Below are positions 1 to 3,698 of a DNA stretch of 32,804 nt, piece after piece. The notes below the pieces were generated by a model, which searched no databases, was not told where the DNA came from, and was given only the letters and a program-made list of their open reading frames with translations. The translations under genes and the position numbers were made by a program. The number at the start of each line of letters is the position of its first letter. Position 1 is the stretch's first letter. The DNA is from Ralstonia pickettii (GTDB lineage: Bacteria; Pseudomonadota; Gammaproteobacteria; Burkholderiales; Burkholderiaceae): the NCBI RefSeq assembly GCF_001699815.1, contig NZ_MCGB01000080.1:1-32804 (forward strand), given 5' to 3'.

Positions 1-545
1 GCTCCAATGGCGGTGACGCCAATCACCATCATGGCTCAGGCTCAGCAACGGGTGGCGCAGCAGCCGCGGCCGGCGGAAACGGCGCGGCCGGCGGCACCGG
101 CACCAGTGGCAGCTCTACCGCGTCTGGTGGCGCAGGCACTGGAACGAGCACGGCCACCGGCACCAGCACAGGTGGTGCAGGCGCGGCAGGTGGGGCCGCT
201 ACCAACGTGGCCGGTACTGGCGGTGCAGGCGGTACTTCCACGAACGGCAGCGCGACCAACGGCGCAGCATCGTCCACGGCAGGCAATGGTGCCGTTGGCG
301 CCGTGGGTGCGGCTGGTGGTGCAGGCGGTGTCGGCAATGGTGGCGTCGGCAATGGTGCGGTGGGTGGCACCGGCGGTGCAGGCGGCACGGTCATGGTGGA
401 CGCAGGCACGTTCAACATGTCCAACGCCATGACCAGCGTCGGTCAATCCGCAGCTGGTGTGATGGTGGCGAGCCAGAACAGCGGCTTCGCTTCCCTCATC
501 CAGCAAAGCATCAACGTGCAGGCCAACCTGAACGTGGGCAAGTAG
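1..545 (+). CDS. Gly/Ala/Thr-rich secreted Fap-type amyloid subunit (3' part only)
   Basis: The gene enters from the left edge, open from base 3 in frame to the TAG at 543-545, so start and signal peptide are not visible. About 135 residues are extremely rich in Gly, Ala, Thr, Ser and Asn (blocks such as GGAGG, GNGG, GTGGAGG), with one NHHHG patch. The last 45 residues change character to a non-repetitive tail containing FNMSNAM, GQSAAG and QNSGFASLIQQSINVQANL. That tail resembles the C-terminal signature of the two downstream small secreted proteins. I infer a fibre subunit of a Fap-like functional amyloid, from its neighbours (C39 peptidase, FapF-like pore) and its composition. It could instead be a low-complexity surface adhesin; which of FapA, B or C it corresponds to cannot be decided from the visible part. 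The same low complexity recalls mycobacterial PE-PGRS proteins, but nothing else here is mycobacterial. Confidence 0.6.
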   Translation, partial: SNGGDANHHHGSGSATGGAAAAAGGNGAAGGTGTSGSSTASGGAGTGTSTATGTSTGGAGAAGGAATNVAGTGGAGGTSTNGSATNGAASSTAGNGAVGAVGAAGGAGGVGNGGVGNGAVGGTGGAGGTVMVDAGTFNMSNAMTSVGQSAAGVMVASQNSGFASLIQQSINVQANLNVGK

Positions 546-669: not shown

Positions 670-1104
670 ATGCGATCCGACAGAAGAACCACAGCAGGGT
701 GGGCAGCATGGTGGTTGGCGTGCGGCCTGGTGGCGTGGCCGGCGGCAGCAGCAACGGCAGCGAACGATGCGCCAATTGCAGACGGTGCGCAGGTGGCCAG
801 CACGGAAGCGGTGCGTCCCCCGGCCGCCGCGGCCATGTCGGTGCCTGGGCTCGGTCATGCGGTGGGCGCAGATCGGCTCGACAGCTATCGCGGCGGCACG
901 CAGGATCTCTACCAGACCGTCAATGAAGCGCGCCTGTCGGGCACGGTGAGCGACAACGCCGCCATTAACGTGGCGACGGGGTCGAACATCGTGCGCGACG
1001 GCTCGTTTGCCAATGCCAGCGGGATCCCCACGGTCATCCAGAACAGCGGAGCGAACGTGCTGATCCAGAACGCCACCATTGTCAACGTGCAGTTCCGGCC
1101 TTGA
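670..1104 (+). CDS. small secreted Fap-locus protein with LDSYRGG motif
   Basis: A 144-residue protein. The start at 670 is chosen for the AGGAG just upstream and because it gives a Sec-type signal peptide (RR-containing n-region, hydrophobic core at about residues 11-24, then PAAAATAA). A Pro/Ala-rich stretch is followed by ADRLDSYRGG (residues 68-76) and then a Ser/Asn/Val-rich part with NAAINVATGSN and a C-terminal VIQNSGANVLIQ ending in NVQF. The tail matches the pattern in the preceding and following secreted proteins. The RGG motif looks like a double-glycine processing site, possibly for the C39 peptidase encoded next. The stop at 1102-1104 lies 16 nt before the peptidase start, suggesting one operon. 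I infer a minor amyloid component or nucleator (FapA/FapB-like); its exact role is unknown. Confidence 0.6.
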   Translation: MRSDRRTTAGWAAWWLACGLVAWPAAAATAANDAPIADGAQVASTEAVRPPAAAAMSVPGLGHAVGADRLDSYRGGTQDLYQTVNEARLSGTVSDNAAINVATGSNIVRDGSFANASGIPTVIQNSGANVLIQNATIVNVQFRP

Positions 1105-1120
1105 GCTTGAGAAGGGCGGA

Positions 1121-1804
1121 ATGATGCGCAAGACGTTCGGAGCAGTGCTGGTGGCACTGATTTGCGGGCCCGCGTTGGCGGGCACGATCGACATGCTCGG
1201 CACGGGCGGCGGCACGTATGCCATGCCGGTGACGAGCATGAAGGCCGCGCGCTATCTGCGTACCGTGCATCAGCGTTTCGACTTCAGTTGCGGGTCCGCT
1301 GCGGTGGCGACACTGCTCACGTATCAGTACGGCTATCCGGTGAGCGAGCAGACCGTGTTCCAGGCCATGTACGAGCATGGCAACCAGGAGAAGATCCGGC
1401 GAGAAGGCTTTTCGCTGCTCGACATCAAACGCTATCTGGCATCTCTGGGCTTTGAGGCCGATGGTTTCGAGCAGCCGCTGGATGCATTGAAGGGCGCCCA
1501 CCTGCCGGCCATCGTGTTGTTGACCGAGAACGGCTATCACCACTTTGTGGTGGTCAAGGGCGTACAGGAAGGGCGTGTGCTGGTGGGCGATCCGGCCATG
1601 GGCACGCGTGCGATTCCGCGTGCGAGTTTCGAGAGCATGTGGGACAACCATTTGCTGTTCGTTGTCCATAACCGCGAGGCGGGGGCGACGTTCAACGCCT
1701 CATCGGATTGGCGCGTGGCACCGCGTGCACCGCTGGAGGAAGGCATGGACCGCAGCGGCCTGGGAAACATCGTCGTTCCCAAGCATGGTCCGTCCGACTT
1801 CTGA
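1121..1804 (+). CDS. fapD: secreted C39-family cysteine peptidase, FapD-like
   Basis: A 227-residue peptidase with a signal peptide (MMRKTF..., hydrophobic core, ending near ALAG at residue 21), so it should act in the periplasm. Catalytic features of the C39 (bacteriocin-processing) family are visible: Gln51 of the oxyanion hole, Cys57 in FSCGSAAVATLL, His141 in HHFVVVKG and Asp157 in GDPAMG. The domain stands alone, without the ABC-transporter membrane and ATPase parts of bacteriocin exporters; this is the FapD architecture of Pseudomonas amyloid operons. GAAGGG at 1111-1116 serves either ATG 1121 or ATG 1124; the latter has the more usual spacing. Neighbouring secreted proteins carry L-D-x-x-R-G-G sites that could be its substrates; this is inference. 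The peptidase call is firm and the Fap assignment rests on context. Confidence 0.82.
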   Translation: MMRKTFGAVLVALICGPALAGTIDMLGTGGGTYAMPVTSMKAARYLRTVHQRFDFSCGSAAVATLLTYQYGYPVSEQTVFQAMYEHGNQEKIRREGFSLLDIKRYLASLGFEADGFEQPLDALKGAHLPAIVLLTENGYHHFVVVKGVQEGRVLVGDPAMGTRAIPRASFESMWDNHLLFVVHNREAGATFNASSDWRVAPRAPLEEGMDRSGLGNIVVPKHGPSDF

Positions 1805-1849
1805 GCATCGTTGGCGCGCGACATTCCGGTAGTCGGGCAGGAGGGCATC

Positions 1850-2386
1850 ATGAAGCGGTTTGGCAAGGTGGCGTGGGCCGCTGGATGGTTCGCGCTGGCT
1901 GCGGCCGGGCATGCGTGTGCGGCCGGCATGGGCGGCATGGACAACAATCCGGTCCATGCCTGGCAGGCCGTGTCCGAAGACAAGCTCGACGACATGCGCG
2001 GCGGGTTTGATGTGCCCTCGCTCGCGGGGTTGCGCATTTCGTTCGGCATCGACCGTGCGGTCTTCATCAACGGCGACCTGGTGGCGAGTGCATCGGTCAA
2101 TATTCCCGATGTGGCACGCATGACGACCACGCAGGCGCAGCAACTGGCCTCGGTGGTCAATACGGTCAACATCGTGCAGAACGGTCCAAACAATGTCGCT
2201 CCGCCCGATGTGGCGACGGGGGGGGCAGCGGCAGCCACGGTCATCCAGAACAGCCTGAACAACCAGACGCTGCAGGCGGTGACGACCATCAATGCGGCGG
2301 TCAACAGCTTGCCGCAGTTCCGTCAGATGAATCTCTCCAACGTGCTGCAAGGCGCGTTGGCCAACGTCGTCACCATGCTGCACTGA
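1850..2386 (+). CDS. secreted Fap-locus protein with LDDMRGG motif, FapE-like
   Basis: A 178-residue protein. The start at 1850 is preceded by a strong AGGAGGG and gives a signal peptide (MKRFGK, hydrophobic core, cleavage near HACAAG). After the signal comes VSEDKLDDMRGG (residues 41-52), which fits the double-glycine leader pattern (Leu at -7, hydrophobic at -4, GG at -2/-1). The body is Val/Asn/Gln/Ala-rich, with SVVNTVNIVQNGPNN and VIQNSLNNQTLQ, related to the C-terminal signatures of the two upstream secreted proteins. It lies 45 nt after the C39 peptidase gene in the same direction. Position after fapD and before the fapF-like gene suggests FapE, a minor secreted amyloid component. It lacks the Gly-rich linkers of the first gene. 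The stop at 2384-2386 is 1 nt from the stop codon of the convergent fapF-like gene. Confidence 0.62.
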   Translation: MKRFGKVAWAAGWFALAAAGHACAAGMGGMDNNPVHAWQAVSEDKLDDMRGGFDVPSLAGLRISFGIDRAVFINGDLVASASVNIPDVARMTTTQAQQLASVVNTVNIVQNGPNNVAPPDVATGGAAAATVIQNSLNNQTLQAVTTINAAVNSLPQFRQMNLSNVLQGALANVVTMLH

Positions 2387-2387
2387 G

Positions 2388-3698
2388 CTAGAACTGGATC
2401 GGCAGGCGCAGCGTGACGGTCAGGTCCGGCGTGTCACGCGTCAGGCCCGCACCCACCGACAGGTTCAGCGCCATCTTGGGTGAGAGCCGGTACGAATAGC
2501 CGACCAGCAAGGTGCCGAGAATCGTGCGCACAGAACCCGGCACGCGCTGGCCGTTTTGCGTGGTCGGCCCGATGATGCTCTGGTCGTAGCCGATAGAGAA
2601 CGACGCCTTCTCGTTCAGCGCCAGCCCCATGCCGAAGTTCAGGCCGATGATGTCGCCGGCCTTCACGTTGCCCAGGAACTGCTTCGAGCCGTCCACCAGG
2701 TTCAGACTGACGTCCTTGCGCTCGAAGTTGTGCAGGTAGCTGATGCTGCCGAAGAAAACCGCCGGGTCCGTCGGGAACAGCCACGTCAGCCCTGGCTGTA
2801 CGGCGAAGAAGCCCGAGCCCGTCGGCTGTTGCAGAGGCAGGCCGGTGCCCGTGGTATTGCTCACACAGCGTGTCACGCAATCGGTGGTGACTTCAAACGG
2901 ATCCTTGCCGGTGCGCGTCTTGAAGCGCAGCCAGCCGATGTAGAACGGCTTGTCGACCCCGCCTGCATTGATTTGGTAGCGCGCAGTCAGCTCCACGTCG
3001 CCGATGCCGTGTCCGTGCGAGCTGAAGGCGTTGTCCGTCGCCGTGCCGGTGAACAGCTCGCGGCTGACGGTGTCGCTCTTGCTGTAGACATAGGGCACCC
3101 GCGCCTCCAGCTCCCAGCGCCGCGCGAGGCCGTAGCGCATCGCCACCGTGCCGGTCAGCGTGGTGGTCTTCACCTGCCGTACGTCGATCAGCCCGATCAG
3201 CAGCGCGGGGATGATGGTGTAGCCCACCAGCGCCACGCGGTCCGACGACGAATACGCCATCTGAAATGACGGCTCGACAACAACCTTGCCCGGCGGTGTG
3301 AGTGCGCTGGGCTCGTCGAAAATCTGCGCGATGCGTGGCGGCCGGTCAGGAGGCTCCGGCGGTTTGCCGACAGGCGTGGTTCCGGGCTGGTCGTTCTGCG
3401 CGAGTTCCACGGCGTCGCCGGCCGCGCCGGGAGCACCGGCACCGCGCACGGTGTCGAGTCGGCCCTCACTCATGCCGAGCGCGCGCCGCATGTGCCGCAG
3501 ATGCGCTTCCTGTTGCTGGATCGAGCGCTTGAGCTCCTGCAGGCGCGCCTGCGTATCGACAAGCTCGCGCTGCAGCGCTTCCAGGCTGGGTGGCTTGTCG
3601 TCCACCGGCTCGTTGGTCTGTGCAAGTGCCGACCTGCCGCACAGCAGCAGGCATGCGCACGCAACCGCGCGAAGCGGCCCCCATGGTGCGTTCTTCAT
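2388..3698 (-). CDS. fapF: FapF-like outer-membrane amyloid secretion pore
   Basis: A 436-residue outer-membrane protein. The start at 3698 is chosen because it directly precedes a signal peptide (cleavage near SALA-QTNE, residues 26/27), with AGGGA upstream. A heptad-like coiled coil follows (residues about 37-74; EALQRELVDTQARLQELK), then SEGRLDTVRGAG, a Pro-rich linker, and a beta-barrel of alternating amphipathic strands ending in LPIQF with a terminal Phe, as in outer-membrane barrels. EPSFQMAYSSSDRVALVGYTIIP and LIGLIDVRQVK look like the FapF family of Pseudomonas, where a trimeric coiled coil gates a barrel that exports amyloid subunits. Such proteins are often labelled phenol-degradation MetA-like. 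Here it is encoded on the opposite strand to the subunit genes and convergent with them, so it must have its own promoter in 3699-3870. Confidence 0.78.
   Translation of the reverse strand: MKNAPWGPLRAVACACLLLCGRSALAQTNEPVDDKPPSLEALQRELVDTQARLQELKRSIQQQEAHLRHMRRALGMSEGRLDTVRGAGAPGAAGDAVELAQNDQPGTTPVGKPPEPPDRPPRIAQIFDEPSALTPPGKVVVEPSFQMAYSSSDRVALVGYTIIPALLIGLIDVRQVKTTTLTGTVAMRYGLARRWELEARVPYVYSKSDTVSRELFTGTATDNAFSSHGHGIGDVELTARYQINAGGVDKPFYIGWLRFKTRTGKDPFEVTTDCVTRCVSNTTGTGLPLQQPTGSGFFAVQPGLTWLFPTDPAVFFGSISYLHNFERKDVSLNLVDGSKQFLGNVKAGDIIGLNFGMGLALNEKASFSIGYDQSIIGPTTQNGQRVPGSVRTILGTLLVGYSYRLSPKMALNLSVGAGLTRDTPDLTVTLRLPIQF

Follow-up and report, generated by a model that had tools for sequence, protein, structure and literature searches.

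The window analysed here is a 32,804-nt stretch of Ralstonia pickettii DNA (GCF_001699815.1, contig NZ_MCGB01000080.1, positions 1-32,804). It contains what, going by its genes, is a Fap-like functional-amyloid cluster, in which three proteins (a small secreted protein, a FapE-like protein and a FapF-like pore) carry the same short motif beside a free, FapD-like C39 peptidase. Judged by sequence, this motif has the canonical double-glycine leader register (-12, -7, -2, -1 relative to the expected cut) plus an Arg at -3. We put at roughly 80% the probability that the FapD-like peptidase acts in the periplasm on Sec-exported proteins and cuts a second, double-glycine-type leader after position -1. 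A two-step leader, first Sec and then C39, had been proposed in a preliminary description of this DNA. For FapE and the small protein it is well supported by conservation, by the register, by a predicted helix and by the joint occurrence with FapD; from these we infer that FapD binds the leader and cuts it, where it cuts, and that the cut plays a role in licensing secretion.

A C39-type leader motif in three exported proteins

In the small protein (144 aa; ORF at 670-1104, + strand, with a Sec-type N-terminus), the motif VGADRLDSYRGG spans positions -12 to -1 at 862-897 (+ strand) and reads V-12 GADR L-7 DSY R-3 G-2 G-1, with LDSYRGG at residues 70-76 (877-897). The FapE-like protein (178 aa, 1850-2386, + strand, Sec-type N-terminus, placed by a 41-sequence alignment) carries VSEDKLDDMRGG at 1970-2005 (+ strand; alignment and model), which reads V-12 SEDK L-7 DDM R-3 G-2 G-1. 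Here SEDKLDDMRGG corresponds to residues 42-52 and LDDMRGG to 1985-2005, and the cut is expected after G52. In the FapF-like pore (436 aa, 2388-3698, - strand), MSEGRLDTVRGA lies at 3438-3473 on the - strand, between the coiled coil and a disordered linker, as placed by sequence and alignment. It reads M-12 SEGR L-7 DTV R-3 G-2 A-1; SEGRLDTVRGAG covers residues 77-88, after the predicted coiled coil, with LDTVRGA at 3458-3438. All three strings quoted in the preliminary description are thus present in frame, and their residue ranges hold for FapE and FapF; ADRLDSYRGG in the small protein occupies residues 67-76, not 68-76.

In the published C39 leader consensus, L-12 xxx E-8 L-7 xxxx G-2 G-1, residues -10 to -4 form a helix and those at -12 and -7 a hydrophobic knot (PMC6959990). 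We examined the register in windows found with a pattern that fixed only -7, -3 and -2, leaving -12 unselected. LIVMF occupied -12 in 93% of 68 FapE, 88% of 42 small-protein and 86% of 43 FapF windows, against 0 to 23% at -13, -11, -10 and -9; the exceptions in the scan were -14 in FapE (46%) and -8 in FapF (33%). Position -4 was hardly constrained, with LIVMF in 63, 40 and 23% across the three proteins, and was dropped as a hydrophobic position on account of this low frequency. The last two residues were GG in 68 of 68 FapE windows and, among the 42 of the small protein, GG in 41 and GA in one. The constrained positions are therefore a hydrophobic -12, Leu -7, Arg -3 and Gly -2. Against these positions the formula given earlier for canonical leaders, L-x3-L/M/I-x-GG, is loose.

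In the AlphaFold prediction, FapE residues 43-49 form an isolated helix that spans exactly -10 to -4, and the RGG behind it is unstructured (block pLDDT 74). For FapF, AlphaFold predicted a short helix at 78-86, starting at -10, and then the disordered linker (pLDDT 42-51, a weak prediction).

Conservation and enrichment of the motif

We collected orthologues from 80 named loci, those ranking best among 580 confirmed ones; going by their titles, most belong to Burkholderiales and Xanthomonadales. To keep the motif out of the collection, the profiles covered only the barrel in FapF and, in FapE and the small protein, the sequence that follows the motif. Loss of the motif in orthologues had been named beforehand as a possible refutation. 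Instead the motif was kept, in 78/78 FapE, 62/79 small proteins and, with variants, 59/69 FapF.

The 78 genuine FapE orthologues all contain L...RGG, 71 in register and seven read individually; the other two of the profile's best 80 hits are small proteins (L169 and L193, where no FapE was called). A register test from the profile start, which gave 71/80, was set aside, its nine failures being these seven real motifs and two wrong picks. In a FapE alignment of 41 sequences (the window and 40 of 62 with a placeable start; mean identity 27%), L46, R50, G51 and G52 are four of nine invariant columns, the start Met included. Among the 17 small proteins without L...RG, 13 have L...SGG or L...CGG in place, one has RAG and three have HAG. 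A narrower sorting retained 53 loci, 42 with L...RG, eight with another residue at -3 and three with neither. In one FapE-like protein of Cupriavidus (L162) the full motif occurs twice, as LAALRGGF and, at a distance of 121 residues, as LAVMRGGF.

The proteins of such clusters are rich in Gly and Ala, and a chance similarity among Gly-rich secreted proteins was considered as an explanation of the motif. As a control we took the remaining ORFs of these 80 loci that reach 100 aa, 626 in all, picked greedily by length and hence not all genes. They contained 30 matches to L...RG[GA] in 232,745 residues (1.3 per 10,000) and 11 to the full pattern [LIVM]x4Lx3RG[GATKR] (0.47 per 10,000), three of which resemble small proteins missed in sorting. 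The 214 cluster ORFs held 148 full matches in 73,259 residues (20 per 10,000), an enrichment of about 40-fold over neighbouring ORFs. At this background rate the three window proteins, 758 residues together, should hold about 0.04 full matches; three were observed. FapF matched the strict full pattern in 36/69 loci, against 0.24 expected after shuffling. The motif is real; it occurs far more often than chance allows, and chance similarity is already refuted.

FapE also goes with the peptidase. Of 41 genomes, 20 gave FapE-profile matches, and every one of these has FapD; the 20 genomes without FapD gave none, and the sole FapD genome lacking a match (G032) carries a FapE of another type. We sought paralogous barrels away from FapD as a further control, but the search turned up only the genome's second Fap-like locus and so supplied no barrel of that kind. 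The motif was absent from the FapC-like fibre protein in 69 of 70 loci (97 searched; an ORF of at least 200 aa found in 70, some of them cut by contig edges), and the single match sits before the start, in a stop-to-stop reading. The part of the fibre protein present in the window (3-545) likewise has no motif.

The FapD-like peptidase

The adjacent secreted C39 peptidase with Cys57, reported in the preliminary description, was confirmed at 1121-1804 (+ strand; 227 aa, Sec-type N-terminus) by Pfam Peptidase_C39 (PF03412, E 2.6e-23) and NCBIfam. It matched C39_FapD with E 2.9e-39 and 134.6 bits, not reaching the curated cut-off of 330, and FilB with E 1.8e-36, also below the curated cut-off. 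By these scores it is Fap-like but outside the FapD equivalog. The Pfam scan of the ORF found only C39-type domains and none of the transmembrane and ATPase domains of an ABC-transporter fusion; the sole other match was a weak, sub-cut-off HTH_21. Among the named FapD of the genome scan, that of Ralstonia sp. SET104 is nearest, at 89% identity, and a FapD-like peptidase was present in 16/16 searched genomes of the genus, that of the window counted.

The catalytic residues Gln51, Cys57 (1289-1291), His141 (1541-1543) and Asp157 (1589-1591; all + strand) are each conserved in 159 of 160 FapD loci, with one gap; 156 of these loci are distinct, four being present twice. This bears on the idea that the motif is a binding handle only and FapD a non-cutting chaperone, like the inactive C39-like domains of some exporters. 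Such chaperone domains do exist (PMC6173800), but the retention of Cys57, His141 and Asp157 and the failure of a published Cys38Ala mutant to secrete (PMC5557850) make this very unlikely. In a relative listed as L074 and L104, a single in-frame TGA interrupts the C39 gene.

In PCAT1, the leader is held by residues A55 and I59 (PMC6959990). By our own count along the alignment, on the assumption that its chain numbers run three higher than those in the paper, these align with L99 and K103 of FapD, in the block EGFSLLDIK, whose Ser98 is identical in 160/160 loci.

The copy of the motif in FapF

A FapF orthologue lies within 4 kb in 69 of the 80 loci. The strict L...RG was found in 43 of these, and R/H and G/A variants raised the count to the 59 given above, against 3.9 expected after shuffling the same stretches. 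Among the 59, the last three residues are RGG in 15, RGT in 13, RGA in 12, RAG in eight and RAR in seven, with four singletons. FapF thus retains -12, -7 and mostly Arg -3, with -2 and -1 relaxed. In a 31-sequence alignment R85 is invariant and L81 conserved in at least 90%; these sequences were picked from 65 orthologues and 30 of 31 carry the motif or a variant, so this selection is weaker evidence than the 59/69.

Since the binding positions persist and the residues at the bond vary, docking and cutting, the latter put forward in the preliminary description as a trimming of the coiled-coil gate, are both possible at this copy. FapD binding at the end of the FapF coiled coil is likely on these sequences, and the copy may be a docking site. 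We tentatively entertain, without favouring it, that this site holds FapD at the pore for the processing of FapE and is itself cut slowly or never. The varied scissile residues of FapF beside the uniform RGG of FapE suggest as much, and the periplasmic coiled-coil domain has been reported as essential for secretion (PMC6173795, PMC6173800); the four FapF lacking a coiled coil also lack the motif. Against this, GA is sometimes accepted by C39 enzymes (PMC5557850), so that RGA and perhaps RGT may be cut, and Rouse et al. saw no FapF linker peptides (PMC5557850).

Ten FapF lack the motif, four of them without any coiled coil and six with one. The former come from Duganella/Rugamonas (L158, L177, L193 and L194), and the small protein of these loci has HAG instead of RGG in L177, L193 and L194 and RAG in L158. 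In the Massilia-type FapF of L159, L182, L190 and L236, [LM]...RGTG occurs twice within the linker.

The surrounding cluster

The genes in the window run from the 3' end of a FapC-like gene through the small protein and the free C39 to FapE, with FapF on the opposite strand. The FapC-like Gly/Ala/Asn-rich fibre protein is present by frame translation as its 3' end only (3-545, + strand), its 5' part lying beyond the contig edge. In relatives, a Gly-rich protein with a Sec-type N-terminus is encoded upstream, a candidate fibre subunit of the FapC kind. The small protein had no Pfam or NCBIfam match up to E 1, and Pfam and NCBIfam searches with FapE gave none. The C-terminal fibre-like segment of the small protein, TVIQNSGANVLIQNATIVNVQ, has a counterpart in FapE, and the C-terminal segment QNSGFASLIQQSINVQ of the FapC-like gene at the contig edge is similar to both.

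The pore comprises a signal peptide, a coiled coil, a linker and a beta-barrel, as assigned from NCBIfam, PDB and the model. It matched NCBIfam FapF with E 3e-45 and 154.8 bits, below the cut-off of 700, and the solved FapF barrel (PDB 5o67) matched its residues 121-436 with E 4.3e-32. The AlphaFold model places the coiled-coil helix at residues 39-73 (3480-3584, - strand). A FapF-type barrel with an N-terminal coiled coil is therefore present.

Comparison with other Fap, Fil and double-glycine systems

Like the window, the Pseudomonas Fap system (FapA-F) has a free C39 with a Sec-type N-terminus and FapE- and FapF-like neighbours. Our comparison set was eight loci with FapD above the NCBIfam cut-off, presumed to be Pseudomonas. 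Their FapE, for example PIELKDQELATLRGRY, shows the same register, with Leu -12 (Val in L229), Glu -8, Leu/Met -7, Arg -3 and Gly -2; the residue at -1 is Arg or Lys, whereas that of the window is Gly. The window differs further in its extra small protein upstream and in a FapD and FapF that fall below the NCBIfam Fap cut-offs.

The leaders of PCAT1-CtA, LahT and ComA share with the window type the hydrophobic -12, Leu -7, Gly -2, a small -1 and the helix from -10 to -4, and the C39 catalytic residues are common to the window peptidase and PCAT-type enzymes. Unlike PCATs, the window C39 lacks an ABC part and has an N-terminus of Sec type. Its leader type adds Arg -3 and, in contrast to PCAT leaders, sits behind a signal peptide, on substrates that would be exported by Sec first.

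The Fil system of Acinetobacter (NCBIfam FilB, FilC) and second C39 loci in other genomes also have a free C39 next to a FapF-like protein. Neighbouring secreted proteins carry leader-like sequences in the same -12/-7/-2 register: MDDAALSAATGQ (A. baumannii, L242), MDDAALSGITGQ (L237), MDDSSLSSVTGQ (L238) and LNDTGLEQATGQ (L108). These are of the form ..L....TGQ, with Gln at -1 and, unlike the window type, no Arg -3. The type was found only in these four loci, and not in L240 or the remaining L104-L116 loci, where motif matches look like chance. The secreted proteins in question are possibly FilA-like and could bear a Fil-type version of the leader.

A second Fap-like system, of the kind seen in the eight presumed Pseudomonas loci, is present in the genome of the window and again includes a free C39 (L033, G000:C39:24000-38000). 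Its FapE has LADDGELAQQRGKY (RGKY type) and its FapF DLELVRVRGRG, with RGRG behind the coiled coil; a secreted protein with repeats belongs to it as well. In one genome from another class of the phylum (L232), FapE carries GEPIADEELGSIRGKF and FapF GEPLAPDDLVTMRGRY.

Automatic sorting of the 160 loci by the residue at -1 gave Gly in 81, Lys or Arg in 22 and another residue or no call in 57. At several FapD positions the Gly and Lys/Arg loci share no residue. We do not claim coevolution, as one ancient split would explain these residue sets.

Discussion

In the mechanism we propose, the targets would first be exported by Sec into the periplasm. Each would carry a second leader, as a rule about 30 to 70 residues past the Sec site, with a hydrophobic -12, Leu -7, Arg -3 and Gly -2, and with Gly at -1 in FapE and Gly, Ala, Thr, Lys or Arg elsewhere. 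FapD would bind the short leader helix and cut after -1; FapE and the small protein, now mature, would be free to pass through FapF.

Several observations weigh against this reading. Cleavage at the motif is deduced from sequence, and signal peptides were called by a home-made rule. Two features of classical leaders are not conserved: the hydrophobic -4, and the Glu -8 of the PCAT1 leader alignment (PMC6959990), where FapE has chiefly Arg, Thr or Gln; Glu -8 is conserved among the PCAT1 leaders but is not known to be essential there. In the small protein, Arg -3 is replaced by Ser or Cys in 13/79 loci, and RAG or HAG stands in four. The six FapF with a coiled coil and no motif count here, as do the eight presumed Pseudomonas loci, where FapF in every case lacks the motif that the window FapF has. 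The surroundings of the most divergent C39s (L104-L116) yielded no RG-type leader. The FapE profile also detects the small protein and the two share the fibre-like C-terminal segment, so they are not independent of each other, FapF being independent of both; the view of three mutually unrelated motif proteins was dropped for this reason. Finally, FapE conservation runs past the motif, with Phe/Tyr at +1 and Gly at +6, so part of the conservation could be structural. The motif could then be a structural or pore-targeting element of FapE and its relatives, independent of FapD. We consider this unlikely: FapF, which has another fold, carries the motif in the same register, the spacing matches the -12/-7/-2/-1 of C39 leaders, and the fibre protein, likewise secreted, lacks it.

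The general idea that FapE and possibly FapF are FapD substrates is already known. Rouse et al. (2017; PMC5557850) named FapE and possibly FapF as substrates of a FapD that acts in the periplasm and requires Cys38, and Fap proteins were said to lack canonical C39 sequences. FapE was the Fap protein without N-terminal peptides, FapA-D showing peptides along their whole length, and GG/GA motifs are marked for both FapE and FapF in supplementary figures of that paper. A double-glycine motif in FapF was noted in a 2016 review (PMC5135000). FapD is needed for amyloid secretion, and its substrate has been called unclear or undetermined (PMC5557850, PMC6173800), a 2018 review describing it as yet to be determined (PMC6173800). 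We found no statement of the present motif in the searched passages of open-licence PMC papers, which for Rouse et al. were of the main text. The apparent novelty lies in a recognition sequence that matches the register and recurs in three proteins, in the Arg at -3, in the G and K/R types and in the absence from the fibre protein.

More speculatively, Sec-exported Fap, Fil and related proteins might share a periplasmic double-glycine code. In it, a second leader would be read by a free C39, the residue at -1 (G, K/R or Q) would track the peptidase type, and the pore copy would be a docking leader tethering the peptidase at the gate. We hold this wider scheme to be rather doubtful.

A defined site with named residues (-12, -7, -3, -2 and -1) makes the question of the FapD substrate directly testable. 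If the two-step leader is true, the leader/C39 pair of ABC exporters, which cut in the cytoplasm, would have been re-used after Sec, across the membrane, and similar exported substrates would be findable by sequence.

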